In this document: positions 1,936-21,596 of the stretch, in pieces
Layout of the letters: each line of letters starts with the position of its first letter
How positions within the stretch are numbered: the first letter of the stretch is position 1
Notes under the pieces: generated by a model
Seen by the model: the letters and a program-made list of their open reading frames with translations, nothing else
Database searches by the model: none
What the model was told of the DNA's origin: nothing
Virus record (IMG/VR): IMGVR_UViG_3300021085_000233
Location: 1 to 22,849 of that record
DNA from: a virus
Length of the DNA: 22,849 nt
Direction: 5' to 3' (one strand)
Translations under genes and position numbers: made by a program

Positions 1936-3129
1936 ATGGCAACACTTCGCGATAGATTGAACGCGCTTTTACGGTATCGAGTCGGCAAGTACGACTCACA
2001 GACCTTGGCGAATGACTTAGGTATTTACGGCACTACGGTAAGCGGTGCGAATATCAACGAGAACACGGCGCTTACAATCTCGACGGTTTACGCCTGCGTT
2101 TACAAGATTGCCAGCACCTTGGCCAGCTTAGATTTAGAGGTATATGAGCGCACAGGCCGAGAGATAGAACCTGCGAACGTTCACCCTGCTTATGACGTTA
2201 TCAAATACAAGCCCAACGAATACCAAACGGCGTTTGACTTTTGGGAGACCGTTATAAGCAACGCAGTCATTAACGGCGTTGGCTATGCACTGATTGAGCG
2301 CGATGGACGTGGCTATGTTACTAGCCTTGTTTGTTTGGACATATACGACGTAGACCGCAAGAACGTCAATGGCCAAATAGTTTACAGCGTGCGCAATGTG
2401 GGCATTGTTCAGCCTGAGAATATGCTGGAGATTTGCAACCTACAAAGAAAGTCGCCGATACGTTTGCACCGTGAAAATTTAGGACTAGCCAAAAGCGCGG
2501 AGGACTTTGGCGCGGAGTACTTTGGTAGCGGCGGGCAAATGACAGGGATACTATCTAGCGACCAGCCTTTGAAAAAGGAGCAGATGGATATAATACAAGG
2601 CAGTTGGAACAAGGCCGCACAGCAAGCAGGCACGAAGCTGCTGCCGTTTGGGTTTAAGTATTCACGCATCAGCATCAGCCCCGACGAAGCGCAGTTTATA
2701 GAAACGCGCAAATTTCAGGCTGAAGAGATATGCCGCATTTTTAGCGTGCCGCCTACGTTGGTACAGCTTGAAAGCCAAACAACTTACAACAACGTTGAAC
2801 AGCAGAACCTACAATTTGCACGGCACACCATTGCACCTTGGGCCAAGCGCATCGAGCAGGAGATAGATAGAAAGCTAATCCAGTCACGCGAGCGCCCACA
2901 GATATACAGCAAGTTTAATTTAAACGATTTGTATCGGGGCGATATGCAGAGCCGCGCAGACTTCTACACGAAGATGCTGAACAATGGCGTGTTGAGTATT
3001 AACGAAGTCAGGGGCAAGGAAGAAATGAACCCAACGGACGGAGGCGACACGCACACGGTGCAGGTAAACCAAATCGCGCTGGACCGCCTAGGCAAGTACA
3101 GCGATAAAGTCAGCAGCGATGGCGTTTAG
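1936..3129 (+). CDS. Portal protein, HK97 family
   Basis: This 397-aa protein would form the dodecameric channel at one head vertex through which DNA enters and leaves. Recognisable family features include the N-terminal TALTISTVYACVYKIAS helix (about residues 43-59), the FDFWETVISNAVINGVGYALIERD block in the wing region, and the IFSVPPTLVQLES segment in the stem/crown half that is typical of HK97-like portals. The length is normal. It starts 12 nt after terL and its 3' end overlaps the next gene by 11 nt, as is usual for terL-portal-protease operons. The C-terminus is Asp/Ser/Val-rich and may be flexible. Confidence 0.95.
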   Translation: MATLRDRLNALLRYRVGKYDSQTLANDLGIYGTTVSGANINENTALTISTVYACVYKIASTLASLDLEVYERTGREIEPANVHPAYDVIKYKPNEYQTAFDFWETVISNAVINGVGYALIERDGRGYVTSLVCLDIYDVDRKNVNGQIVYSVRNVGIVQPENMLEICNLQRKSPIRLHRENLGLAKSAEDFGAEYFGSGGQMTGILSSDQPLKKEQMDIIQGSWNKAAQQAGTKLLPFGFKYSRISISPDEAQFIETRKFQAEEICRIFSVPPTLVQLESQTTYNNVEQQNLQFARHTIAPWAKRIEQEIDRKLIQSRERPQIYSKFNLNDLYRGDMQSRADFYTKMLNNGVLSINEVRGKEEMNPTDGGDTHTVQVNQIALDRLGKYSDKVSSDGV

Positions 3130-5299
3130 TAAGTACCCTGAGGCGATGACAAACAACGCGAAACGCGGCCTGCGTCTAAATGAAGAGGTAGGCGGTAAGT
3201 GCGCGACGGCGGTAGGTAAAGAGACCGCGCGGATTTTATCAAACAAAGAAGCAATCAGCGAGGCACGCACCAAAAGAATGTACAGCTTTTTGAGCCGCGC
3301 CCGAACATATTACAAGCCCGACGACACAGAAGCGTGCGGCACAATTAGTTACTTACTTTGGGGCGGTGATACCGCTTTGAATTGGAGTGAATCAAAAGTT
3401 AAAGCAATGAAAGAAGAAGAAGACAAGCGCACGGAAGAACTGCGCAGCCAATACGGTGACAGCGTAGAATTACGCACGGCAGAAGTGCGGGCCGCAGGTG
3501 ATGATGCTTTGGTAGTCGAAGGCTACGCGAGCAATTTCGATGTAGAGTATGATTTAGGATACTTCAAAGAAACCGTAGCACGTGGCGCATTCGATGACGT
3601 AATGCAGGATGATGTAAGATTTTTACTGAATCACACAGGCGCACCATTGGCACGAACTACGAACGGCACGTTAGAGCTGAGCGTAGACGAGCAAGGTTTG
3701 AAATACCGTGCAGCACTTGCCGACACGCAGGACGGGCGCGACCTTTACAAGCTTATCAAGCGCGGCGATATTACACAGAGTTCGTTCGCTTTTACAATTG
3801 ACTCGGACACGTGGAGCGAAGACCGCAGCACGCGAACAATTACCAAGGTGGGCAAATTATTAGACACGTCGGCGGTCACATACCCAGCAAGCCCGACGGC
3901 ATCAGTCTACGCGCGAAACATGGCAGAGGCCGCGCAGGAAGTGGAGGAATTGAAACAAGAACAGGTAGCAGCTGAACCCGTAGAGGAACAGCGCGCAGAA
4001 CCTGAAACGATAAAAACAGAACCGCGTAACTTTACGCAAAACATTACAAAGATGACTTTAAACGATTTGAAAGGCCAGCGCAATGCAAACTATGAAGAGT
4101 TTGTTGCAATCGGCCAAAAGGCGGACAGCGAAGGCCGCGTTATGACAGAAGCAGAACAGGAGCGATGCGACAAGCTTGACAGCTTGATGCAAGACCTCGA
4201 CGTTAAGATTAAGCACAAGACACGTGAGCAAGACATGGTTGCACGAATGGCGCAGAGCGGTACAGCCGGCGCATCCGAGCAACGCGAAGTTGAGCGCGTC
4301 AATAGTTCTTTCAGCTTGAGCCGTGCAGTAGCTGCCGTTGCAAACGGTCGAAACTTGGAAGGTGCAGAAGCAGAGTGGGCAAGTGAAGCAAGCAAGGAAG
4401 CACGAAGCCAAGGCCTGCAAATGGCTGGACAAATTGCAATTCCTTCAATCGCTTTGCGTGCTGGAGCTGCTGACGACTTCCAAGCAGGAAGCGGCGACGG
4501 TTCAGGATTTGTTCCAACTGTTGTACCTGCTGCAATCGAAGCACTTCGCGCCCCTACCGTATTGGAAGGACTCGGCACAACAGTAATTCGTAACGCTACG
4601 GGTAACTTGCAGTTTCCACGTGTAAGCGCAAAGGCCGCAGGCACAGGTGAAACAGAAGTTTCAGCCGATGCAGGTTCAGGCTTGGAAATGGATGACGTTA
4701 CTTTGACTCCGCAGCGAGTTGCAGCTAACACCAAGTACAGCAAGCAATTGATTTTGCAGGGCGGTGCAGAGGTAGATGCTTTGATTGCTAACGAGTTGGC
4801 CGCAGCTATGAATGCATATGTTGATGACTATGCTTTTGACGCTATTATGGCATCTACTGATGTTGATGTTTACAACACTGCCGACGCTGCTTTGTCTGCA
4901 ACAGTTGCAAACGCAATGGAGGCCGCTGTACTTGCAGCAGGTGGAAACCTCGGAGGCGCTTCGTACGTTATGAGTCCACAGGCTTACCTACTTTCAAAGT
5001 CCGTTGCACAGGTTGCTGGCGTGACTCCATTGTGGGAAAATGGCCAGTTCAATATGTACAACGCAGTCGCTACACCTTACTTGGTGAACGATACGCTTGA
5101 CGCAACTGGAGCAGGTGGCCGAATGATTTTCGGAAACTTTGCACAGGGCGGAATCTTGGCCTACTTCGGTGGCCTTGATTTGCTGGTTGACCCGTACAGC
5201 GACGCAGGCACTGCACAGATTGCATTGCACGTGAACCGTTTCTTTGACTTTGGTATCCGACAAGGCGGCGCATTGAGCCGAGCGGTGAAGCTCTCTTAA
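3119..5299 (+). CDS. Protease-scaffold-major capsid polyprotein
   Basis: One uninterrupted 726-aa frame carries functions usually split over two or three genes. Residues 1-95 form a compact domain with the motifs AKRGLRLNEEVGGKCATAVG, RMYSFLSRA and CGTISYLLWGGD. A similar domain recurs, from memory, in other phage head proteins, with unknown role. Residues about 117-265 are an HK97-type prohead protease, with candidate catalytic His172 (LLNHTG) and Ser222 (TQSSFAF). Residues about 270-311 are a Glu/Lys-rich linker. Residues 312-385 are a charged helical region like the HK97 delta (scaffold) domain. Residues about 395-726 are an HK97-fold major capsid protein ending NRFFDFGIRQGGALSRAVKLS. Autocleavage would release the capsid subunit. 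An internal ATG at 4052 could make capsid separately. A terminator follows the gene. Confidence 0.92.
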   Translation: MAFSKYPEAMTNNAKRGLRLNEEVGGKCATAVGKETARILSNKEAISEARTKRMYSFLSRARTYYKPDDTEACGTISYLLWGGDTALNWSESKVKAMKEEEDKRTEELRSQYGDSVELRTAEVRAAGDDALVVEGYASNFDVEYDLGYFKETVARGAFDDVMQDDVRFLLNHTGAPLARTTNGTLELSVDEQGLKYRAALADTQDGRDLYKLIKRGDITQSSFAFTIDSDTWSEDRSTRTITKVGKLLDTSAVTYPASPTASVYARNMAEAAQEVEELKQEQVAAEPVEEQRAEPETIKTEPRNFTQNITKMTLNDLKGQRNANYEEFVAIGQKADSEGRVMTEAEQERCDKLDSLMQDLDVKIKHKTREQDMVARMAQSGTAGASEQREVERVNSSFSLSRAVAAVANGRNLEGAEAEWASEASKEARSQGLQMAGQIAIPSIALRAGAADDFQAGSGDGSGFVPTVVPAAIEALRAPTVLEGLGTTVIRNATGNLQFPRVSAKAAGTGETEVSADAGSGLEMDDVTLTPQRVAANTKYSKQLILQGGAEVDALIANELAAAMNAYVDDYAFDAIMASTDVDVYNTADAALSATVANAMEAAVLAAGGNLGGASYVMSPQAYLLSKSVAQVAGVTPLWENGQFNMYNAVATPYLVNDTLDATGAGGRMIFGNFAQGGILAYFGGLDLLVDPYSDAGTAQIALHVNRFFDFGIRQGGALSRAVKLS
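4052..4054 (+). other. Possible internal start for a separate delta-domain/capsid protein
   Basis: Codon 312 of the polyprotein is an ATG that opens MTLNDLKGQRNANYEEF, which looks like the natural N-terminus of a stand-alone HK97-type capsid precursor. Initiation here would give a 415-aa protein, the usual size. The upstream bases are A/T-rich (AACATTACAAAG) without a Shine-Dalgarno sequence, which is not unusual in Bacteroidota. This site would let the phage make far more capsid than protease from one frame. It is an inference only. Confidence 0.3.
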
Positions 5300-5368: not shown

Positions 5369-5932
5369 ATGATGACCGTAGAAATAACAGGCACGCCCGA
5401 CCTTGACAGCATTATAACCGTGGCACAGCTAAAGGAGCATTTGCGAGTTGACCACACAGACGAAGACACGTTAATCGAGGCGCTGAGAGATGCAGCGATA
5501 GCGTGGATTGAAGATGTATGCAATACGCGACTCGGTGACGTTACCGCCGTGGGTTATATCGACTATTTTTATAACGTTCGTTTTCCCATTGGCCCGGTGA
5601 ACTCCATTGCATCCGTGACGTACTTGGACACGGCAAACGCAACGCAAACGCTACCAGCCGCAAAATATTGGTTTGACATAAAAACCAAAAGCGCGCGCAT
5701 TACGTTCGACAATACGCCCGACCTATACGACGACACATTCAACGCGGTGCAGGTAAATATGACGGTAGGTTATGCAGAGGATGCAATCCCGCAGCCGCTT
5801 GTTCATGCCATTCGTTTGCTTGTTGGGCATCTGTACGAGAACAGGCAAACCGTTACAGGCTACAAAATGCACGAGCTGCCTTTGGGTATTTATAGCATTA
5901 TTTCACCATATCGCAACGTTACAAGTGTATGA
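5369..5932 (+). CDS. Head-tail connector (gp6-like)
   Basis: This 187-aa protein resembles the gp6-like head-tail connector family, whose members form a ring under the portal. The N-terminal segment VAQLKEHLRVDHTDEDTLIEALRDAAIAWIEDVCNTRL (about residues 17-54) is the characteristic helix pair of the family, with the usual LRVD...ED spacing. It is the first gene after the capsid terminator and overlaps the head-closure gene by 4 nt (ATGA), the normal order for HK97-like modules. Two tandem ATG codons occur at 5369 and 5372 and either could be used. Confidence 0.85.
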   Translation: MMTVEITGTPDLDSIITVAQLKEHLRVDHTDEDTLIEALRDAAIAWIEDVCNTRLGDVTAVGYIDYFYNVRFPIGPVNSIASVTYLDTANATQTLPAAKYWFDIKTKSARITFDNTPDLYDDTFNAVQVNMTVGYAEDAIPQPLVHAIRLLVGHLYENRQTVTGYKMHELPLGIYSIISPYRNVTSV

Positions 5933-6258
5933 AAATCGGGAAACTCGACAGGCGAATAACGATAGAGCGCGCAACGCTAACGCTCAACGATTACGGCGAG
6001 CGTGCTGAAACATGGACAACCTTGGCCACGGTTTGGGCAGAGGTTAATTACCGTGGAAGCGGTAGCGAGTCCATACAAAGCGACCAAGTTTATGCGGTTC
6101 AACCTGTGCATTTTATCATAAGGTACAGCAGCACAGTAAGCAGCTTGCGGCCAAGCGACCGAGTAAGTTACAGCGGCCAACTGTATCAAATTGAAGCCGT
6201 GCAGGAAATCGGACGCCAGGAAGGTTTAAGGCTTGTCACAACGTCAACGGGTGAGTAA
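5929..6258 (+). CDS. Head closure / head-tail joining protein
   Basis: This 109-aa beta-rich protein opens with IGKLDRRITIERATLTLNDYGE and continues with TWTTLATVWAEV. This is the signature of the SPP1 gp16-like head-completion family, which seals DNA in the filled head. The C-terminal GQLYQIEAVQEIGRQEGLRLVTT also fits. Size and position between the connector and the tail-completion gene agree. It overlaps the previous gene by 4 nt and the next gene by 1 nt (TAATG), so translation is probably coupled. Confidence 0.9.
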   Translation: MKIGKLDRRITIERATLTLNDYGERAETWTTLATVWAEVNYRGSGSESIQSDQVYAVQPVHFIIRYSSTVSSLRPSDRVSYSGQLYQIEAVQEIGRQEGLRLVTTSTGE

Positions 6259-6785
6259 TGGATACGATGCAGGCGCAACTTCGCAAAATCGAAAAGCGGT
6301 TAGACAGAGCCGCACGATTTGGCACGATTAACAAAAAGGAATTCAGAAGGGCGAACCGCTTGGCAGGTAAAGAAACAGTGCAGGCAATGCGCGGAAAACT
6401 AAAGCCGTACAAAGACGATATAAAAATTCACAAGAAAAACGGCAAGCACGTAACCGTAAAAAAAAACCAGCTTAAAAAATCAATTGGCGTTTGGTTTGGC
6501 AAAGACAGCAACACGGCAATGATTGGACCGCGTGCAAACAATGCAGGCAAATACAAATTAAAGCGCAAAGTGCGTGACAACGCGGATGGCTGGTTTGCTC
6601 ATATTGTGGAAATGGGCGCACGTCCTGCAACGATGAAAAAAGGCGGCAAGAAAGGCGGCGGCGGTATCATCATGCAAACGCCAAACAAAGGTAAATTAAC
6701 GCAGGGTATTAAAGCAGGGATTGGCAAGACTAAGCGCAAACAGGTGGAACTTTACAGAAAGGAATTTAAAAGGTTTATGAAATGA
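6258..6785 (+). CDS. Tail completion protein (HK97 gp10-like)
   Basis: This very basic 175-aa protein sits where HK97 gp10-like proteins are found. The family joins the tail tube to the head or finishes the tail top. The pattern EFRRANRLAGKETVQAMRGKL near residues 29-49, followed by LKKSIGVWF and WFAHIVEMGARPA, matches the family's helix plus beta core and its conserved HxxExGxxP-like segment (here HIVEMGARPA). A Gly/Lys-rich insert lies near residues 127-140. Lysine is unusually frequent throughout. The assignment combines motif resemblance with gene order. Confidence 0.8.
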   Translation: MDTMQAQLRKIEKRLDRAARFGTINKKEFRRANRLAGKETVQAMRGKLKPYKDDIKIHKKNGKHVTVKKNQLKKSIGVWFGKDSNTAMIGPRANNAGKYKLKRKVRDNADGWFAHIVEMGARPATMKKGGKKGGGGIIMQTPNKGKLTQGIKAGIGKTKRKQVELYRKEFKRFMK

Positions 6786-9607
6786 CAGTTGGAAAAGCTA
6801 TTTTTGATTTGTTGCTGGACAACACGGATTTGCGCGCAATCGTAAACAACCGAATCTTTCCCGAAGTTGCGCAACAAGACGCTCAACTGCCTTACGTGGT
6901 TTACAACATAAGCAGCAACGAACCAAGCGACACAAAGCGCGAGCCGTCTAAGATGGACACCGCACAAGTCGAGGTTAATTTATATTCGACCAGTTACACC
7001 GAGTGCATTGATATGTCCACGCACGTGCGGGCTGCGCTTGACCGGGTAACGGGCACATATTCGGGCGTGAATGTTCAAAGCATTCAATACCTTGGCGAGG
7101 TTATTGATTTCGATGAGGCGCAGAGGGCTTATAACATCACATCTGATTATGATGTAAGGGTAAGCCGCAGCGACTTCGAGATAGCGCAAGGAAGCCCCAT
7201 CACAGGCGTTAAGCTTGGCGAATTGTCAGACGTTGACACCACAGGCGTAACCGATGGCCAAGTAATTGCCTACGATGCAGCCGCACAGGAATGGCAGCCA
7301 GCAGATGACGCGGGCGGCGTTACTCAGTTAGGCCAGTTAACTGACGTGCAATTTGGTCAGGGCGGCCCTGAATCGGGCGACCTTTTAAAGTACGACGGCA
7401 GCGAGTGGACGAATGACAGCTTAACAAAAAGTGAGATTGGGCTTGGTAACGTGGACAACACCAGCGACGCAAGCAAGCCTGTCAGCACGGCCACGCAAAC
7501 CGAGCTAAACGCCAAGGCCAACAGTGCCGACTTTAGCAACGTAGATAATACAAGCGACGCGGATAAGCCATTAAGCACAGCGACACAAACGGCACTAAAT
7601 GCAAAGGCCGATACAAGCGCAGTGCCTACGGATTTAAACGACCTGAGCGACGTGAGCATAGTAGGCACGCCCGTAGGCAATCAGGCGCTAATCTATGACG
7701 CGACAGCGGGCGCGTTTAAATCGCAGGTCAGTTACACCAACCGTTTCGAGGATGAGGTGGAATCAGGTTTATACATTCCGACCATATACGCCGAGCGCGG
7801 ATATTCTGTAAAGTCAGAAGGCGACGGCACTTTCATCGACCCATCGCCCGACACGCCAACAGCGGGCAAGGTTATACAGCGCAAGATTTACCACAAAACT
7901 GGTTTTATCAGCGACTCGGATGTGATAGGAGACTACACTTTAATCCACACCTTTGCAGACGATACAGCTTACGCGGATACCCTGGCCGTGTTTGACGCGT
8001 TCGAGGATGGCGCAACCTATGGCGTGCCACCGTTCACGTTGTTTCAAACGTGGGAGGAGGTTACAGCAGCCCCATCGTTCACGGGGTTGCTCAACGAGAC
8101 CTACGGAAGCGGAGCGGAAGCCGCGTATTCAACGCGAAGGCTCAACGGCAATGTAACCGAGTGCATGGTCATTCGCAGAGCATCGGACAGCACTACCACC
8201 ACGATAGGCTTTGACGTTTCAGGGAACATTGACGAAAGCGCAATAAATACGTTTTGTTCGGGAACTACTTGCACCGTCCAAACATGGAAAGACCAAAGCG
8301 GAAACGGGAACGATGCGACGCAGACAGACCCAACGAAGCAACCGACCATTTACACGGGTGGGGCGATTGTGAAGGAAAACGGACGGGTAGCGGTGCAAAG
8401 CGATGGCTCAAATGATATACTGCAAACAAGCGACCTTGCTTTATCAAATACAGAATTGAGTTTCTTCGGTGTTGCTACGAATGATTTTGCAACAAATCAG
8501 ACGGAAGGGCTTTGGGGCAGTCCTGGGGCAGCAAATGTTGCGCCGTCTTTGTTGCGGTATCAAAACCTAAAACATCAGGCTGTATTTGCTCCTTTTAGTG
8601 CCGTTGATTTTGGACTCGCCGACACTTCGCAGCATTTGTTGACGATGATATACGACACGCAAAGAAAAGCGGCTCAAGACGGGAGCGCATTTGCCACGCA
8701 AGCGGGGTCTTTGGCGTCTTTATCCGTTATTGGATTATTCAGTAGAGGAGATACCTACGCTTGGACGGGTAATGCGCAAGAGTTTATTTTCTACGCCTCT
8801 GATAAAACCACCGACCGCACCAGCATCGAATCCAACATCGGCGACTACTTCACCCAAAACACGCCACTACTTGACACGTACAGCGGTGCAGCTGCTGCGT
8901 ATTCTTTGCGTCGGCTTTCGAGTACATACACAGGTGACGCGGTAGAGGTTTACAACGGGAGCAGCTACGCGGATATAGGGTTTAACGTATTCGGTGAACT
9001 CGATACGGTTGCACTGGCAGACCACTGCGGTTCATCCGATGGGTTTGTATCGAAGTGGTATGACCAAAGCGGAAACACGAACACGGCAGCGCAAACGACT
9101 ACATCTAATATGCCGAAGATTTACGACGGCAGTACGGGCGTGGTGACGGAGAACGGAAAGCCTTCCCTTAACTTTAAAGCGGGTGATTTTATGAGCGATA
9201 CAGGTTGGAATGGCGCTTCGACTAGTTATATTTTCAACGTCCTTAAATCCAATGGCTCTGAATCAAGTCCACGAATTGCAGTCGATGTTGGTTCATCTGT
9301 CGAGTACTATGGTTTAGGAATTAACGGTAATTCGGGAGCAAGCAGCGCGGGAATTGGTAGCTTATCGCAATTCAGTAACGGAACTTCAATCGGAATAACG
9401 CGTAACGATATTTGGGACGCGCTGCAATCGCAAAGCGTTCTAACCGTTTCGGGTGATTTTAGCAGTTGGACGGGAGGATTTGGATTGACTCGAAGTGGTC
9501 AGAAAATGTACACTTTTGCTCAGGAGTTTATTATTTATAATTCCGACCAATCCGCCAACCGCACCGACATCGAAGACAACATTAACACCTTCTACAGCAT
9601 ATATTGA
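6782..9607 (+). CDS. Tail terminator fused to fibre-like repeats and two lectin-like domains
   Basis: Residues 1-133 of this 941-aa protein resemble a complete DUF3168 tail terminator (AIFDLLLDNTDL, FPEVAQQDAQLPYVVYNI), the hexamer that caps the tail tube. The rest is unusual. Residues about 145-315 hold three fibre-type repeats (LSDV...YD...W, near 147, 182 and 287) interleaved with two 30-aa NVDNTSDA..P.STATQT.LNAKA repeats. Residues about 445-695 and 700-941 are two copies of a LamG/arabinofuranosidase-B-like beta-sandwich, each with YSxRRL, W.DQSGN.N.A.QT and a closing FI.Y.SD....RT.IE.NI. The frame has no break. The extension probably binds sugar and would decorate the neck or tail top. 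It overlaps its upstream neighbour by 4 nt. Confidence 0.85.
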   Translation: MTVGKAIFDLLLDNTDLRAIVNNRIFPEVAQQDAQLPYVVYNISSNEPSDTKREPSKMDTAQVEVNLYSTSYTECIDMSTHVRAALDRVTGTYSGVNVQSIQYLGEVIDFDEAQRAYNITSDYDVRVSRSDFEIAQGSPITGVKLGELSDVDTTGVTDGQVIAYDAAAQEWQPADDAGGVTQLGQLTDVQFGQGGPESGDLLKYDGSEWTNDSLTKSEIGLGNVDNTSDASKPVSTATQTELNAKANSADFSNVDNTSDADKPLSTATQTALNAKADTSAVPTDLNDLSDVSIVGTPVGNQALIYDATAGAFKSQVSYTNRFEDEVESGLYIPTIYAERGYSVKSEGDGTFIDPSPDTPTAGKVIQRKIYHKTGFISDSDVIGDYTLIHTFADDTAYADTLAVFDAFEDGATYGVPPFTLFQTWEEVTAAPSFTGLLNETYGSGAEAAYSTRRLNGNVTECMVIRRASDSTTTTIGFDVSGNIDESAINTFCSGTTCTVQTWKDQSGNGNDATQTDPTKQPTIYTGGAIVKENGRVAVQSDGSNDILQTSDLALSNTELSFFGVATNDFATNQTEGLWGSPGAANVAPSLLRYQNLKHQAVFAPFSAVDFGLADTSQHLLTMIYDTQRKAAQDGSAFATQAGSLASLSVIGLFSRGDTYAWTGNAQEFIFYASDKTTDRTSIESNIGDYFTQNTPLLDTYSGAAAAYSLRRLSSTYTGDAVEVYNGSSYADIGFNVFGELDTVALADHCGSSDGFVSKWYDQSGNTNTAAQTTTSNMPKIYDGSTGVVTENGKPSLNFKAGDFMSDTGWNGASTSYIFNVLKSNGSESSPRIAVDVGSSVEYYGLGINGNSGASSAGIGSLSQFSNGTSIGITRNDIWDALQSQSVLTVSGDFSSWTGGFGLTRSGQKMYTFAQEFIIYNSDQSANRTDIEDNINTFYSIY
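7442..7621 (+). repeat. Two tandem 30-aa fibre-type repeats
   Basis: NVDNTSDA(S/D)KP(V/L)STATQT(E/A)LNAKA is encoded twice with a 90-nt period, the two GTN codons of VDN being at 7451 and 7541. Protein identity is high, while many codons differ synonymously, so the duplication is old and kept at the protein level. Similar repeats occur in many phage tail fibres. Confidence 0.85.
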
Positions 9608-10014
9608 TGAACGGATTTATCATAGTCCTACCAACGGACACGCAGACAAGCGAACGGAGAGCGTACCAAATCACGCGAGAGCTGTACAACATCTCCCGCC
9701 CCGTTTTGATACAGGCGGAAGGCGAAGCGGCTTCGACCGTGTTTGGTATTATCGTACACCCTGACGGAGTGCAGAACGCTTTGCAGGTTGACACGGATTA
9801 TCTTATCAACGTACACCCTGCGGCAAACCTCGAGCGCCTTGTGGCTTGCTTTCCTGAGCTGTCGAACGACGAGCGGTATAGCCTCAGCAGCTACGTGCAG
9901 GTTAATCAAAAGTTTCCTTTCGGGCATATCGTGCCGAGCGATACGACGATTCGAACACAGGAGTACATGGATGAAAATGGATGGTTTCCTGAATCGCCTG
10001 AAGGTGAAATTTAA
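9607..10014 (+). CDS. Unknown tail-module protein
   Basis: I do not recognise this protein of about 135 aa. It lies between the tail-terminator fusion and the major tail protein. The sequence is a soluble alpha/beta mix starting MNGFIIVLPTDTQTSERRAYQITREL, with no membrane segment or obvious catalytic motif. The C-terminus has IRTQEYMDENGWFP. The ATG at 9607 overlaps the previous stop by one base and is preferred over the TTG one codon earlier. It could be a neck component or a chaperone for the lectin fusion, as suggested by position only. Confidence 0.7.
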   Translation: MNGFIIVLPTDTQTSERRAYQITRELYNISRPVLIQAEGEAASTVFGIIVHPDGVQNALQVDTDYLINVHPAANLERLVACFPELSNDERYSLSSYVQVNQKFPFGHIVPSDTTIRTQEYMDENGWFPESPEGEI

Positions 10015-10032: not shown

Positions 10033-10188
10033 ATGAAGGTAACATTACAAAAACCATACAACAAAAACGGCTGGAAATGGTCAGCGGGCAAAGTTGTAGA
10101 CGTTTCAAATAAGTTTGCCGCAAAACTTAAAAAAGGCGGGTATTTAGATAAGCCCGAAAAAAAAGAATCAAAAAAAATTAAAGAGTAA
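10033..10188 (+). CDS. Small basic protein upstream of the major tail protein
   Basis: A 51-aa gene begins MKVTLQKPYNKNGWKWSAGKVVDV and ends in a Lys/Glu-rich tail (KPEKKESKKIKE). It starts with ATG 18 nt after the previous stop and overlaps the major tail protein start by one base (TAATG), which supports real translation. The aromatic/glycine pattern suggests a small beta-barrel. Short proteins of this style are common near tail-tube genes in phages, with unknown function. Confidence 0.65.
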   Translation: MKVTLQKPYNKNGWKWSAGKVVDVSNKFAAKLKKGGYLDKPEKKESKKIKE

Positions 10189-10634
10189 TGGCACAAACAA
10201 CAGGCATTATAAATTCGTCAAGTATTCGGGTATTCCTTGGAACAACTGACGATTCGGAGGTAGTAATTGACCACGTAACTGAGTGCAGTATTTCCATGAC
10301 TACGGACATGAGAGACATAACGACAAAGACAAGCGCGGGATATCGTGAACTTTTGCCCGGGTTAAAGTCGGCCAGCATGAGCGTTAGCGGCCTTTTTGCA
10401 GAGGACGCAACCAACGGTTACAACCAACTCATCGACCACCAACTTGCAGGCGACAAGCTTTTTGTAATCTTCACAAATACAGGAGGCGGAGCAACTGCAA
10501 ACGCAGGCGACGAGCAATTTGATATTGAAGGTTATATTTCAAGCCTTGAGCAAACCGCAGGCGTAGAAGACAACGTTGGCTTTTCTATGACTATCGAAGT
10601 AACGGGCACAGTTGTACGTGAGGTGATTGCGTAA
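10188..10634 (+). CDS. Major tail tube protein
   Basis: This 148-aa protein has the size, position and beta-rich composition of TP901-1-type major tail proteins, which stack as hexamers to build the non-contractile tube. Features include an N-terminal strand (RVFLGTTDDSEVVIDHVTECSISMTTDMRDITTKTSAGYRELLPG), the SMSVSGLF segment, and a C-terminal strand set ending GFSMTIEVTGTVVREV. The motif DITTKTSAGYRE...G is typical of the fold's central loop. A promoter-like element begins right at its stop codon, ahead of the chaperone gene. Confidence 0.85.
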   Translation: MAQTTGIINSSSIRVFLGTTDDSEVVIDHVTECSISMTTDMRDITTKTSAGYRELLPGLKSASMSVSGLFAEDATNGYNQLIDHQLAGDKLFVIFTNTGGGATANAGDEQFDIEGYISSLEQTAGVEDNVGFSMTIEVTGTVVREVIA

Positions 10635-11240: not shown

Positions 11241-13298
11241 ATGGCAAAATTAGGCGATTTAATAGTAAGAGTTGGCGCGGATACGACTCAGCTGAACAAG
11301 AAACTTGGCGACGCACGCAAAAGCATAGCAAAGAATACGCGAGAGATTCAGCAGCTTGGCCGAAATATGACCGTCGGCATAACTGCGCCGCTGGCTTTAA
11401 TGGGTGCAAGCAGCGTGCAGGCATTCCGCGAACAGTCCAAAGCCATTGCACAGGTTGAGGCGGGCTTAAAATCTACAGCGGGACAGGTTGGAATGACTTC
11501 GCAGGAGTTGCAAAATATGGCAACCGATTTGCAGAACAAAACGCTGTTTGGCGATGAGGTTATTTTGAAGGATGCAACGGCACAGCTTTTAACGTTTACC
11601 AATATTACCGGCGAGCAGTTTGCACGAACGCAGGCGGCGGCCCTTGATTTGGCGACGCGGTTAGATGGCGATTTAAAAAGCGCGTCTATTCAGTTAGGTA
11701 AGGCGCTAAACGACCCAATTGCAAACCTTAGCGCGTTGAGCCGTTCAGGTATCCAATTTAGTAAAGAGCAAAAAGAGGTTATTAAATCGCTTACGGAAAC
11801 GGGCCGACTTGCTGAGGCGCAAACGTTAATTCTTGACGAACTAAATAAGCAGTACGGAGGTAGTGCAGAAGCAGCAGCCCAGGCCGACGGAGGATTTACG
11901 CAGTTGGCTAATTCATTTGGTGACTTACAGGAAGAAATTGGCCGCTTGCTTGTCGACTATTTACGGCCTATCGTTGACCAGTTGAAAACGTTTGTGCAGT
12001 TCTTGCAAGGCACAAGCGAAGGCACAAAAAACGTGGCTTTAGCAATTGCAGGAATTGCCGCAGCCATCGGCCCTGTTCTGCTGATTTTGCCGAATTTGAT
12101 AAGCGGAATAAAAGCGGCGCAGGTGGCTTTTAAATTTTTAAACGCTACAATGTTGGCGAATCCCTTTGCGCTTGCTGCCACGGCCTTGGCGTTGGTCGTC
12201 ACGGGCATTATAATGCTCACAGACGAAACGACTAAAGCAGTAACAGCAGTCGACGCCTTAACCGAGGCAAACAAGAATTTAACGCTTGAGGAACAGAAGC
12301 GAAATATTGAAGTGCAAATTGAGCAACAGAAAAAACTTGTTGAGCAATTAGAAGCCGAGAAAGCCGCAAAAGATAAGATAGCCGAAAAGTTTGGCGGCAA
12401 AGCAATCAAAGAACAGAAGGAAGCAAACGCAGCATTTGCCACAGCTAACAGCGAGTTGGCTACAATGAATACGATGCTGGACGAGGTCAATAAAAAGCTC
12501 GAAAAGACGCCCGTAATTATTGAGGAAATCAAGGACGAAACAGAGGACTTAACTACGAAATCGCGCGAGCTTAAAAACACTATCGGGTTTTTGATTAACG
12601 AGCTTGAGGAAGTACCAAGCGAGAACATTTGGAAACCAACAGAAGACGGTGCAAAGGACTTGACGCAGACGCTTGGCGGGTTAATGAATATGCTCGAGGA
12701 AATACCAGCGGCAACGGTTGACACGCAGCCGCTAACACAGGCAGAACAAGACTTTGAGGATTTTGCTGAATCAGTAAGTAAAGCAATTGAGACAGCAGCG
12801 GAAAGCGCGGCCATAGGCTTCGGCATGATGTTGGGCGAAGGCATTGCAACAGGTAAAGGCATGAAAGGCGTGGGCGCTATGTTGTTAGGCGTTTTTGCAG
12901 ATTTAGCCATTCAATTGGGAACGTTGGCAATTGGCTACGGTATTGCCATCGACAGTATTAAAGCGGCTTTAGCCAGTATAAACGGAGTTCTTGCGGTTGC
13001 TGCTGGTGTTGCGCTTGTTGCATTAGGTGCAGGAATCAAAGGAGCAATTACCAAACGCGCAGAAGGTGCAGGCATTCCAGCCTTCGCCGATGGCGGTATA
13101 GTTTCAGGCCCTACGCTTGGCCTTGTGGGTGAGTATCCCGGCGCGAAAACCAACCCCGAAGTAATTGCACCACTTGACAAATTGCGGGGTATGTTAGGCG
13201 GCCAGCATGTACAAGTGACGGGCAAGATTTCAGGCCGTGATATACTTTTAACGAGTGAAATGAGCAGTATAGACCGTAACCGCGTAAGGGGATACTAA
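11241..13298 (+). CDS. Tape measure protein
   Basis: At 685 aa this is one of the longest tail-module proteins, and it follows the chaperones directly. The N-terminus (LGDLIVRVGADTTQLNKKLGDARKSIAKNTREIQQLG) is characteristic of phage tape measures. Hydrophobic segments lie near residues 264-290 and 310-330 and again in the C-terminal half (about 520-600). A Lys/Glu-rich coiled coil covers about 335-440. The late ADGGIVSGPTLGLVGEYPG motif (about 614-632) is frequent at tape measure C-termini. By the usual rule of about 0.15 nm per residue, the tail would be roughly 100 nm long. It overlaps the next gene by one base. Confidence 0.95.
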   Translation: MAKLGDLIVRVGADTTQLNKKLGDARKSIAKNTREIQQLGRNMTVGITAPLALMGASSVQAFREQSKAIAQVEAGLKSTAGQVGMTSQELQNMATDLQNKTLFGDEVILKDATAQLLTFTNITGEQFARTQAAALDLATRLDGDLKSASIQLGKALNDPIANLSALSRSGIQFSKEQKEVIKSLTETGRLAEAQTLILDELNKQYGGSAEAAAQADGGFTQLANSFGDLQEEIGRLLVDYLRPIVDQLKTFVQFLQGTSEGTKNVALAIAGIAAAIGPVLLILPNLISGIKAAQVAFKFLNATMLANPFALAATALALVVTGIIMLTDETTKAVTAVDALTEANKNLTLEEQKRNIEVQIEQQKKLVEQLEAEKAAKDKIAEKFGGKAIKEQKEANAAFATANSELATMNTMLDEVNKKLEKTPVIIEEIKDETEDLTTKSRELKNTIGFLINELEEVPSENIWKPTEDGAKDLTQTLGGLMNMLEEIPAATVDTQPLTQAEQDFEDFAESVSKAIETAAESAAIGFGMMLGEGIATGKGMKGVGAMLLGVFADLAIQLGTLAIGYGIAIDSIKAALASINGVLAVAAGVALVALGAGIKGAITKRAEGAGIPAFADGGIVSGPTLGLVGEYPGAKTNPEVIAPLDKLRGMLGGQHVQVTGKISGRDILLTSEMSSIDRNRVRGY

Positions 13299-15589
13299 TG
13301 AGTACAATAAGATTTTTCGGAGAGTTTCGGGATGAAGTAGGTACAGATTGGCGAATCAATTTGCACGACACTAATTATAACGGCACAAGCAACGAGATAA
13401 CGTTAGGCGCTGAGGGTTTTACATTGCGCTACACGGGCGACAGTGAAAACCGTTTTCAACCTATCATTGGTTCATCAGTTACATTCACCGTCCTAAACGA
13501 TGGCGGACAATTCGAAACGTTTTTAAACACTGTTTTTCCTGCTGCTGAGGAAGGGCGTATGCAGGTGGAAATTCGCAAAGACCCTGACAATACGGATTTA
13601 CTTTATTGGGCTGGAGTTGTGGCAGCCGAGCAGATAGAACAAGAGGACGCGCCAGCGCCTAACCTTGTAAATCTTACAGCATCGGACGACTTAGCAAACT
13701 TAAAAGACACAAAATTTATACAAGAGTCAGGCTCAAGCACTATCGTATATCCCGCACGTGCTGCAATTATGTCAATCATGACACAAATGCGCACAACAGT
13801 ACACTGGGGCGCGGCGGATGCTTTTTTTAGGTATGTTAATGATGTACAGTTTGAAGATTACACAGGCGCGGATTGGCTGAAGGACGTTTTTTTATCTTCG
13901 CCTACAATCACGGAAGACTGTGAAATTTATGACGGTGAGCGCGGTTATAACAGCTTCGAAATTTTAGAAAGCATTGCGGCCAGTCTTAACGCGCGAATTT
14001 TTCAATCCAACGGATATTGGTGGTTTATTCCAGTGAATTGCCATCTACGTGCAGCAGATGGCGACGACTGGACGACTGATTTAAAACAGCTGAACTTAGC
14101 AGGCGCACAGGTAACGGTTACCACAGCGCAAAGCGCCGAACTTACTGCTGGTTATATCAATGAAGTCGATAGCGATTTTGTGAAAATGGCAGGCGGCACA
14201 ATTTCAAACCTGCCGCCATACAAAAGAGTCAGACGCGTACGCAGGTACAAGGGCAATGATTGGATTTTTTCGGATTACACCACGGGAATAACTACGGGCG
14301 ATAATGTAGTTTTCGCAGATACAGACCGCACTTATATTGAAAATTTACAGTTTAATATTTCGGGAAGCTGTCAGATACTATTGCCGTCACAGAGTTTCGA
14401 AAACAATCCCTTTAACAATGCTGTCGTGCAGGTGCAAATGACCATAAAATGCGGCACACTTTACTACACAAATACAGGTTGGGGCACGTCAGTCGGAGAG
14501 TATGCGCAGGCCATTGCACAATTTCAACGAGGCGACGGAATCGACGGCGCTTTCACGTGGGGCGTAACCACGGACGAGCTACCAAGCCAGCAAGACGGGC
14601 TTGATGTTACTATACAAGTGCGCATTATCCAAGTACCCAGCACGGACGTTACAAGCGACTACACAGCTACGGGCGTAATGATTTTAATAAGTCAACTGCT
14701 GCTTAGTGACGACCAAGGTTTACTCGGCGATGGGCTACTATATGAAGCGGTTACCACACTCGACAACAAATTAATTTTTGACCAAGGCGAGTTTTTCCAC
14801 GGCGACCCAACTACAAGCCAATTCAGTACGCCAATTTATTACGTCAACGAATCAAACTATACAATTGACGGAATTGATAACGAATATGTAAGCAGCCAAA
14901 CAACCAGCGCCCTGCCTTTACATAGGTTAGGCGTACAGGAGGCACTAAGCGGCGGCCAGTTTCCTATACCGATAAAGCGCGGGCAAATATATGGGCGTTT
15001 GTTTGAGATGTGGCAAACGATAAAGGAAGGCACGGAATATTTTGCACCGTTTTGCTTTGATGCAGTATTGAACAGCAGACAGAGCAACGTGCAGCGGTGG
15101 CAGCTTGTTTTTGATACCACTAACATAACAACTAACGAAGCTATTTTAAACAATGACGAGGACACGTTACAGACTTCAATGCTACGCAATGCCGTAGTGC
15201 AAAGCACTTCTGAATTGTTTGAACAGGTGCGGCAATTGCGTGCGGGTGAATTAAGCAACTTTTGCGACGTTCGTACTATTCAAAACCGTAGCGCTTCAAA
15301 TAATTATGTGCTACAAAACGACACGCATTTATTTAATAGCTGGATAGGTAGTAACGGCAGCGGCAACCTTTATTTACCGATTGTAGCAAATAGCGAAGGG
15401 CGAGTTATTCAGATTCACAGCGATGACACAATAGCAGCAAATAAGTTTGTCAAGCTCTTGCCAAACGTAACAGATACAAGCGCAACAATAGACGGCGCAG
15501 CTAGTTACAGCTTTGACCGCGCTTATGACGGCATTACTATATTGTGCCACAATTCGAATTGGTATATCATACAGAAAAAAGAGAAGTAA
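13298..15589 (+). CDS. Large tail-tip/baseplate protein
   Basis: This 763-aa protein directly follows the tape measure, the position of distal-tail and hub proteins. The N-terminal 140 residues are beta-rich (IRFFGEFRDEVGTDWRINLHD, then GFTLRYTGDSENRFQPIIGSSVTF) like a Dit/hub domain that caps the tube. The middle is long and poorly recognisable. The last 110 residues form a separate domain (NNYVLQNDTHLFNSWIG, then a DTSATIDGAASYSFDRAYDG-type stretch) that looks like a small trimeric receptor-binding tip. It may combine Dit and Tal roles, since no separate genes for these are seen. The ATG overlaps the tape-measure stop. Confidence 0.8.
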   Translation: MSTIRFFGEFRDEVGTDWRINLHDTNYNGTSNEITLGAEGFTLRYTGDSENRFQPIIGSSVTFTVLNDGGQFETFLNTVFPAAEEGRMQVEIRKDPDNTDLLYWAGVVAAEQIEQEDAPAPNLVNLTASDDLANLKDTKFIQESGSSTIVYPARAAIMSIMTQMRTTVHWGAADAFFRYVNDVQFEDYTGADWLKDVFLSSPTITEDCEIYDGERGYNSFEILESIAASLNARIFQSNGYWWFIPVNCHLRAADGDDWTTDLKQLNLAGAQVTVTTAQSAELTAGYINEVDSDFVKMAGGTISNLPPYKRVRRVRRYKGNDWIFSDYTTGITTGDNVVFADTDRTYIENLQFNISGSCQILLPSQSFENNPFNNAVVQVQMTIKCGTLYYTNTGWGTSVGEYAQAIAQFQRGDGIDGAFTWGVTTDELPSQQDGLDVTIQVRIIQVPSTDVTSDYTATGVMILISQLLLSDDQGLLGDGLLYEAVTTLDNKLIFDQGEFFHGDPTTSQFSTPIYYVNESNYTIDGIDNEYVSSQTTSALPLHRLGVQEALSGGQFPIPIKRGQIYGRLFEMWQTIKEGTEYFAPFCFDAVLNSRQSNVQRWQLVFDTTNITTNEAILNNDEDTLQTSMLRNAVVQSTSELFEQVRQLRAGELSNFCDVRTIQNRSASNNYVLQNDTHLFNSWIGSNGSGNLYLPIVANSEGRVIQIHSDDTIAANKFVKLLPNVTDTSATIDGAASYSFDRAYDGITILCHNSNWYIIQKKEK

Positions 15590-20309: not shown

Positions 20310-20808
20310 AGGCACGAACGTGCGCACGGCATTGGTATGCGACGAAGCACCAACACGCGCGGCACTTATCGGAATGTTAAGCCGATGCGTAAAGTTTATC
20401 GACGCAAATAAGACGCTTACAGAACCTGAACACATAGCGATGACCGTGAACGAGCTTGTTCAGCAATTCCCAACGTTTACGCTTGAAGATTGGCGCTTGT
20501 GCCTGTACATGATGGCCAAGGAAAGCTTTGGGCCGTACTACGAACGCCTAAAGTTGGCGCAGTTTGTCGATTGCTTCACCAAGTACGACCAACTAAAACA
20601 GCCAGTGATTCAAACCATACGCGAAAACGAACGCAAAGCCGCCGAGCAAATGCAGGCCGAGGCGATGAGGCATTTACAGCCCGAATATACGACTCAAATG
20701 AACCCAGTGGCATCGAGGGTTCACCCAGCGGATTGGATGGCAGGAGAGAGCCGCTTAACGTACACAGAGCGCGAAGAGATGAAGAACCGACAGAAAGAAA
20801 CGAAATGA
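20236..20808 (+). CDS. Probable helicase loader / replication partner (P-position gene)
   Basis: This protein of about 190 aa (start ATG 20236, MSTAKSLQNLQELDVSRLTL) follows the initiator, where lambda P or DnaC-like loaders lie. The core EPEHIAMTVNELVQQFPTFTLEDWRLCLYMMAKESFGPYYERLKLAQFVDCFTKY recurs in Bacteroidota phage replication regions, from memory. It has no Walker A motif, so an ATP-independent P-type loader is more likely than a DnaC type. The C-terminus is charged helix. An earlier in-frame ATG at 20104 would overlap the initiator by over 200 nt; 20236 still overlaps by 74. The loader role is inferred from context. Confidence 0.6.
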   Translation: MSTAKSLQNLQELDVSRLTLQTCFEGTNVRTALVCDEAPTRAALIGMLSRCVKFIDANKTLTEPEHIAMTVNELVQQFPTFTLEDWRLCLYMMAKESFGPYYERLKLAQFVDCFTKYDQLKQPVIQTIRENERKAAEQMQAEAMRHLQPEYTTQMNPVASRVHPADWMAGESRLTYTEREEMKNRQKETK

Positions 20809-21596
20809 AGACAGTAACAAGCGTAAGCGGCGGGCAGTCGTCGGCATACATAGCGGCAAATTACCCAAGCGACTACCTTGTTTTTGCTTTGGTTACAACA
20901 GACGACGCAAAATGTAAACACCCCGACCCAATACTGCGAAAAATGGCCAGCGATAAAATTGGCCGCGACTTCATCGGCACGCTTGAGGAAGATACAATTT
21001 TGCAAACCATTTTCGAGCTTGAGCAATGGTTGCAACAGGAAATTTATTGGGTTGCTGGCTTACCATTCGAGCAGATAATTGACAAAAAAAGCGGGTATTT
21101 ACCGAATATTATGGCGCGATACTGCACGACCGAAATGAAGATAAAACCAATGTTCCATTGGTGGCAAAATACGATTGGAGAACCTGTAGAAATGCAAATT
21201 GGATTCCGTCAAGGCGAAGAACGCAGGGCAAAGAATATGCTCGACAAATGTGTCGACGGCTTGCGGCAGTTTGGTAAAGTGGGATGGCAGAAGCCTGTTT
21301 TTCCTCTTATTGACAACGGCATAAAACGCGATAAAATTGTACAATATTGGGATGATATACCGTTACCATTTGCACAGCAAAACAATTGCGTGGGATGCTT
21401 TCACCGTAATGCCTTGGTGCTGCGCAAAAAGTTTGACGACCACCCGAACAAAATGCAATGGTTTAAAGAGCAAGAACAACGCACTGGCAACCAATTCAAA
21501 AGCGAAATCAACTATACTAACATTGAAAAGCATCGACCACAAACGGAAATAGATTTTTCCGATTGGTCATGTGATTCAGGATACTGCGGATTATGA
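20805..21596 (+). CDS. PAPS-reductase-like PP-loop enzyme
   Basis: This 263-aa protein has a PP-loop (SVSGGQSSAY, residues 6-15) in which the usual Lys or Asp after SGG is Gln, then CTTEMKIKPM (107-116), a CVGC pair (about 195-198) and a C-terminal CxxxxC pair (256-261). Free sulfate reduction is unlikely for a phage. Relatives include DndC-type phosphorothioation enzymes and tRNA/base thiolation enzymes, so nucleic-acid sulfur or base modification is possible. The four cysteines could hold an Fe-S or zinc centre. ATG 20805 overlaps the previous stop (ATGA). The substrate is not shown by the sequence. Confidence 0.8.
   Translation: MKTVTSVSGGQSSAYIAANYPSDYLVFALVTTDDAKCKHPDPILRKMASDKIGRDFIGTLEEDTILQTIFELEQWLQQEIYWVAGLPFEQIIDKKSGYLPNIMARYCTTEMKIKPMFHWWQNTIGEPVEMQIGFRQGEERRAKNMLDKCVDGLRQFGKVGWQKPVFPLIDNGIKRDKIVQYWDDIPLPFAQQNNCVGCFHRNALVLRKKFDDHPNKMQWFKEQEQRTGNQFKSEINYTNIEKHRPQTEIDFSDWSCDSGYCGL

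Follow-up and report, generated by a model that had tools for sequence, protein, structure and literature searches.

A tail-terminator domain continuous with a fibre stalk and GH54-like beta-sandwich domains in a viral genome of siphophage-type gene order: a candidate neck adhesin

Introduction

The tail terminator of siphophages is a hexameric ring placed on the tail tube, and its loss gives polytails. In phage TP901-1, the terminator is a separate protein of 129 amino acids (aa) whose mutants make polytails (PMC4493119), and the terminator homologue of phage E217, gp29, has a C-terminal extension that points outward (PMC10329688). Appendages of the neck have been described in other phages: one carbohydrate-binding module of a lactococcal neck passage structure (NPS) bound host cells (PMC6669499), T4 wac and XM1 gp40 form collar whiskers or spikes with a proposed role in sensing or attachment, and Alteromonas phage R7M carries whiskers (PMC8265664). 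Among these, the appendages with an identified gene are separate proteins. Here we describe a tail-terminator domain that forms the N-terminus of a 941-aa open reading frame (ORF) in the IMG/VR virus record IMGVR_UViG_3300021085_000233, whose 22,849 bases were all analysed and are called the window. A fusion of a terminator with a lectin was not found in the literature searched, which was mainly open-access with few subscription papers or bioRxiv preprints.

Results

Domain architecture of the 941-aa protein

The ORF at positions 6782-9607 of the window is an uninterrupted frame from ATG to TGA, in which a tail-terminator domain is continuous with a fibre stalk, a linker and two GH54-like beta-sandwich domains; the genes described here from Ad1 to the 763-aa protein, with their parts, are on the + strand. 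The tail-terminator domain (aa 1-133, 6782..7180) is encoded ahead of the tail-tube gene and matches PHROG 347 'tail terminator' over aa 1-133 (3.5e-19), as well as Pfam PF11367 Tail_completion_gp17 over aa 5-127 (5.4e-12; 46.4 bits with a cut-off of 24.5; profile positions 1-123 of 124). The fibre stalk (aa 140-330, 7199..7771) shows repeats of the form GLGNVDNTSDA-KPVSTATQT-L-AKA at aa ~213-277, and its aa 213-249 match more than 10 PHROGs, several of them named tail fibre or minor tail protein (best 7e-21). Downstream of it, a conserved linker domain that belongs to no named family (aa 331-432, 7772..8077) is present, with 34-94% identity, in nearly all relatives and in the cassettes on other anchors described below. 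The two beta-sandwich domains (domain 1, aa 435-690, 8084..8851; domain 2, aa 695-941, 8864..9604) are 32% identical to each other and correspond to two stretches matching PF09206 ArabFuran-catal, the GH54 arabinofuranosidase domain (3.7e-13).

A whole-protein AlphaFold2 model was built from 36 aligned relatives, with a predicted local distance difference test (pLDDT) of 40-80 in the terminator, ~80 in the linker and 75-95 in the lectin cores. Foldseek comparison of the model with the PDB ranked GH54 enzymes first, followed by head-tail connector chains and tail terminators, and the terminator-type matches were those of Douge, Bxb1, phiXacJX1, the monocin cap, the R2 pyocin collar, T5 p142 and lambda gpU. 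According to VIA-align, the terminator region reaches Z 9.3-9.8 to solved terminators (aa 4-130 against phiXacJX1 chain 9lbn_K: Z 9.8, 3.3 A, 101 residues) and aa 434-693 reach Z 17.5-18.6 to GH54 structures (6sxs/2d43), the best value corresponding to 3.0 A over ~230 residues with 21% identity. A further match was found between aa 392-691 and the tailspike of cyanopodophage Pan3 (9vyh; Z 13.5, 191 aligned residues, 12% identity).

Profiles, predicted fold and gene order support the assignment of aa 1-133 as a siphophage tail terminator (PF11367 / phrog_347, SPP1 gp17-like). The preliminary description of this DNA, based on its letters, had recognised such a terminator, joined without a break to fibre repeats and two domains that it called LamG/arabinofuranosidase-like. 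The terminator identity is borne out, the join lies within one frame that is under selection, and the label fits a GH54 / concanavalin-like beta-sandwich, a fold of glycan-binding type through which the C-terminal domains may bind glycans.

Conservation of the fusion

Among viral contigs, the whole protein as query retrieved 51 loci and the terminator domain alone retrieved 34; loci fetched later were added. After removal of identical sequences, terminator and extension are encoded in one ORF in 45 distinct relatives complete at the 3' end (638-1224 aa), and five stand-alone terminators (128-139 aa), two of them from phage-record loci, are found in the same set. Almost all relatives running off a contig end are already longer than 200 aa (16 of 17). 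With the terminator-only query, 27 of the 34 loci continue past the domain, five are stand-alone (L072-L076) and two are cut off within it. One of the fused relatives (L175) comes from an independent whole-genome assembly, that is, a separately assembled genome bin. An assembly error is rejected because 45 distinct relatives, including this separate assembly, keep the fusion in frame. The preliminary description had considered that relatives might carry two separate genes, the fusion being an error of assembly; such an error is rejected, and stand-alone terminators occur only in more distant relatives (for example Paracoccus phage Pthi1, L072-L076 and Cellulophaga phage phi18:1), which leaves the fusion in the group of the window intact. 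The further fusions that it had suggested looking for are found among these 45 relatives.

In pairs with like terminators, the ratio of nonsynonymous to synonymous substitutions (dN/dS) was 0.06-0.13 in the terminator, 0.05-0.13 in the stalk and 0.07-0.17 in the linker, therefore the extension is maintained. Over terminator, stalk and scaffold, close pairs mostly give values of 0.05-0.15, a sign of purifying selection. Separate translation of the extension was rejected, since codons 100-461 of the window ORF contain no in-frame ATG and the best internal start candidate is a GTG at codon 326 with a weak GAGG upstream.

Long open frames with a PF11367 match in Planctomycetota genomes were also considered as further fusions; in the six that were read, the length came from read-through upstream of the terminator, which was stand-alone. 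The sole match in the genome collection is a phage contig of 17 kb binned with Pirellulaceae, which gives no host evidence.

Lectin domains and hypervariable islands

Relatives carry one, two or three lectin domains per protein. Both domains of the window contain a hypervariable island, located at aa 521-645 in domain 1 (8342..8716; 28-35% identity between relatives) and at aa 796-905 in domain 2 (9167..9496; 17-28% identity). In the relatives whose first island is 28-35% identical, the scaffold that precedes it (aa 433-520) reaches 69-86% identity. Such a pattern would be expected if a ligand-binding face changes on a fixed frame, and the islands may form such a face.

Cassette exchange and the partner gene

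The relatives form groups in which the terminator and the adjoining head-closure protein are either ~80-97% or ~43% identical to those of the window. Terminators of the second group share 40-44% identity with that of the window, yet their stalks mostly reach 75-96%; for cassettes on different terminators, stalk identity is mostly 75-97%. Compared with the window, the DNA of one relative (L008) shows 36-60% identity in the terminator, 91-100% from nt 7249, 88-89% in the partner gene and 58% beyond it. These jumps in identity at the terminator border and after the partner indicate that stalk, linker, lectins and partner move as one block, and the alignments place the exchange points near codon 140 and after position 10014.

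The partner gene (9607..10014) encodes a protein of 135 aa and its start overlaps the stop of the fusion (TGATG). The protein has no family match in Pfam, PHROGs or the PDB; 436 relatives were found among IMG/VR viral contigs and none among 50,697 phage records. We surveyed the ORF upstream of the partner in the best 80 of the 436 relatives, and it carries linker and/or lectin domains in all 64 loci where it was readable: 20 have an N-terminal terminator, 33 are cut by the contig end and 11 lack a terminator. Among the last, L124 starts inside the lectin and is uninformative, and the rest start with 'MITFNN...' or 'MIQLANF/Y...'. The cassette is found in other phages behind at least two unrelated N-termini.

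The 'MITFNN...' anchor (loci including L126, L128, L111, L130, L131 and L135) has an N-terminal part of 151 aa that looks unrelated to the terminator and has 262 relatives in viral contigs. All complete cases that were examined have it joined to a long extension, mostly the same lectin cassette. Its start resembles a terminator in having a helix-strand-strand-helix order, but the AlphaFold2 model of the anchor reaches a pLDDT of only 39.6, and profile comparison with the terminator, in which the profile was very shallow, gave no match.

The partner is most likely a dedicated partner of the arm formed by the extension, as an assembly or fibre chaperone or as an accessory subunit. A chaperone role would fit its position, the TGATG translational overlap and the fact that it varies along with the last lectin at its C-terminal edge.

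Several further arrangements were observed. The third anchor, 'MIQLANF/Y...', carries the same cassette in L106:1612-5004 and L164:1882-5007, and in L164 its ORF adjoins a metallophosphoesterase gene and a portal gene. L064:2854-4950 shows the same terminator domain with a different fibre-like extension that lacks GH54-like lectins, and no partner-gene match was found between this fusion and the tube gene. PHROG 10356 (852 positions) matches both Hc1 (positions 4-106) and the lectin (334-542), which hints at phages with a lectin fused to Hc1. By its gene map, a 40.3 kb contig (L113 / L171-L172) is probably a chimeric assembly in which two phages meet at the lectin and partner-gene sequence that they share; for this reason L113/G022 was dropped as a candidate second anchor in the terminator slot beside a window-like tube gene.

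Gene order of the window and its relatives

The window shows a siphophage-type order: TerL, portal, protease-capsid fusion, Ad1, Hc1, neck-slot protein, the 941-aa ORF, the partner ORF and the tail tube, followed by two small ORFs, the tape measure and a 763-aa protein. The prohead protease (S78) and the major capsid protein form a single 726-aa ORF (3119-5299). Next to it are genes encoding the head-tail adaptor Ad1 (5369..5932; phrog_442, 1.2e-30) and the head closure protein Hc1 (5929..6258; PF05521, 2.3e-23). The product of 6258..6785 matches no family in PHROG and Pfam profile searches; it occupies the slot of the 'putative neck protein' of Bacteroides phage F4 and, by this position only, is a putative neck / tail-completion protein. 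Beyond the partner gene lie those of the major tail (tube) protein (10188..10634; phrog_1407, 4.8e-23; PF06199, 5e-10), the 685-aa tape measure protein (11241..13298; phrog_27166, 2.7e-58) and the 763-aa probable tail-tip protein (13298..15589; phrog_23570, 3.1e-9), which also has a match in Cellulophaga phages, to a virion structural protein. The order Ad1-Hc1-neck-terminator-tube-tape measure is also found in Paracoccus phage Pthi1 and Bacteroides phage F4. Pthi1 has a stand-alone terminator of 128 aa, and a tail fibre gene downstream of the tail module.

The window starts with a TerS candidate and finishes with an HNH endonuclease, and it is probably near-complete because these genes are neighbours in relative G005 (loci L082-L083 and L089). 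G005 has 22,922 bp with a direct terminal repeat of 99 bp and is therefore complete, being a circularly permuted assembly of 22,823 bp. Its genes parallel those of the window, and the genome size of the terminator-fusion group is ~22.8 kb. Besides the fusion, this complete relative has only two large tail genes, for the tape measure and the 763-aa protein, and sequence searches found no further fibre-like or adhesin gene in it. In a phage genome of ~23 kb, the window also has a phosphoadenosine phosphosulfate reductase-like gene (20490-21596; phrog_424).

Discussion

We consider it probable that the 941-aa protein is a tail terminator with a C-terminal glycan-binding arm, encoded by a cassette equipped with its own partner, in which the islands alter ligand specificity. 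The terminator domain would form the ring that halts growth of the tail tube and contacts the head-closure ring, and the arms, made of stalk, linker and one to three lectin-type sandwiches, would project sideways from the neck; both this location and the outward direction are suggested by the known place of the terminator in siphophages, and E217 gp29 is a precedent for the latter. Six extensions would give six single arms, or two bundles if the stalk trimerises. The arms would bind polysaccharide on or around the host and act as a secondary adhesin or as the one of first contact, with DNA still delivered through the tail tip. Arm and partner are swapped between phages as one cassette, and specificity would shift through the lectin islands. 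By rule of thumb, a 685-residue tape measure corresponds to a tail of ~100 nm. As such a tail would exceed the reach of the arms, these are most likely side adhesins that grip a glycan-rich surface while the tip seeks its receptor.

Several points weigh against this interpretation. The whole-protein AlphaFold2 model is mediocre (mean pLDDT 61.8; predicted template modelling score 0.44), and the stalk is mostly below a pLDDT of 50 (aa 175-288). A trimeric stalk would fit a six-fold ring only if the chains assemble as two bundles. Furthermore, the apparent lack of a second adhesin in the group derives from sequence searches, and the role suggested for the partner from gene adjacency and co-variation only.

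Among the other explanations, we retain as a tentative one that a mobile adhesin cassette plugs onto different virion proteins, depending on the phage group, and in the present ~23 kb group took over the terminator, so that the sole recognisable adhesin would sit at the neck and do most of the host finding. We regard as unlikely another proposal, that the arms are the main host-recognition device, relocated from tip to neck, and that the tip only opens the envelope. The complete relative of ~22.8 kb has no recognisable distal fibre gene and Pthi1, with its stand-alone terminator, has one, and the hypervariable islands resemble host-range determinants; however, the estimated ~100 nm tail would be longer than the span of a ~190-residue stalk and two domains, and the 763-aa protein may contain a receptor-binding part.

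Still less probable is an arabinofuranosidase-like enzyme that trims polysaccharide around the host. It would account for the 72 residues matching GH54 by sequence (E 3.9e-11) and for a GH54 fold match that spans the whole domain, but the sequence likeness is confined to the N-terminal part of the sandwich and the middle of the domain, outside this match, is hypervariable. The region of the GH54 catalytic carboxylate pair (E221 and partner) cannot be aligned by sequence, few acids are conserved across 44 domains, and the single invariant acidic column (E233) lies near the C-terminal end. Catalysis by the GH54-like domains appears unlikely. That the fusion is an assembly artefact, or that its extension is translated apart or removed, is hardly credible: the stand-alone terminators of more distant relatives would favour it, but dozens of contigs and a separate assembly repeat the fusion, the internal starts amount to one weak GTG and no ATG (codons 100-461), the breakpoints coincide with the domain border and purifying selection acts on both halves.

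Terminators are usually seen as small passive rings; as a terminator with a glycan-binding arm, the protein described here would be the covalent anchor of a large adhesin, and every particle that closes its tail would get a fixed number of arms without a collar gene. This would be a second route to neck adhesins, besides the lactococcal NPS and the T4-type whiskers. No cultured member of the terminator-fusion group was found, and dozens of contigs are present in viral metagenomes. The group consists of small uncultured aquatic phages in which the neck, and not the tail tip alone, is likely to carry sticky, fast-changing adhesins. The cassette, with its islands and its 135-aa partner, is a source of candidate glycan-binding modules and a sequence handle on the host range of uncultured phages, and the islands make the question of the neck-adhesin ligand testable with purified domains.

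Comparison with known neck adhesins and related folds

The likeness to lactococcal neck passage structures, with a different build, that the preliminary description had drawn is upheld. It did not mention the mobile cassette and partner gene, the hypervariable islands or, in Cellulophaga phages, a separate lectin fibre of the neck block. As in the NPS (936 group, TP901-1 ORF51), the adhesin would be placed at the head-tail junction, and it shares a constant N-terminus, a stalk and swappable C-terminal modules, which are carbohydrate-binding in the NPS and have a glycan-type fold in the window. The NPS has a gene of its own, whose product has a BppU-like ring domain and is proposed to form an 18-mer collar, whereas profiles and Foldseek identify the N-terminus of the window protein as a terminator domain and not a BppU-like ring, so that the anchor is the terminator itself.

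The closest system by genome is Cellulophaga phage phi18:1, which has distant homologues of the tube and 763-aa proteins of the window. Its gp52 (L254:6396-8201) also combines a stalk, of collagen repeats, with a C-terminal lectin (Laminin_G_3), and its gene is located in the neck block. Unlike the window protein, gp52 is encoded by a separate gene of 601 aa between Hc1 and a gp10-like protein and contains a GDSL-lipase-like domain; the 145-aa protein ahead of the phi18:1 tube gene has no extension. T4 wac and XM1 gp40 differ in being separate collar-forming proteins around the neck, unfused to the terminator (PMC10491603). Regarding the lectin-type domains, the catalytic domain of GH54 alpha-L-arabinofuranosidase has in common with them the beta-sandwich fold and an N-terminal sequence motif, but the central part of the window domains is unalignable and hypervariable. 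The Pan3 protein (9vyh) matches in fold, but it is a podophage tailspike without a terminator fusion. Adhesins of the neck were already known; what is new is an adhesin that would be built into the terminator.

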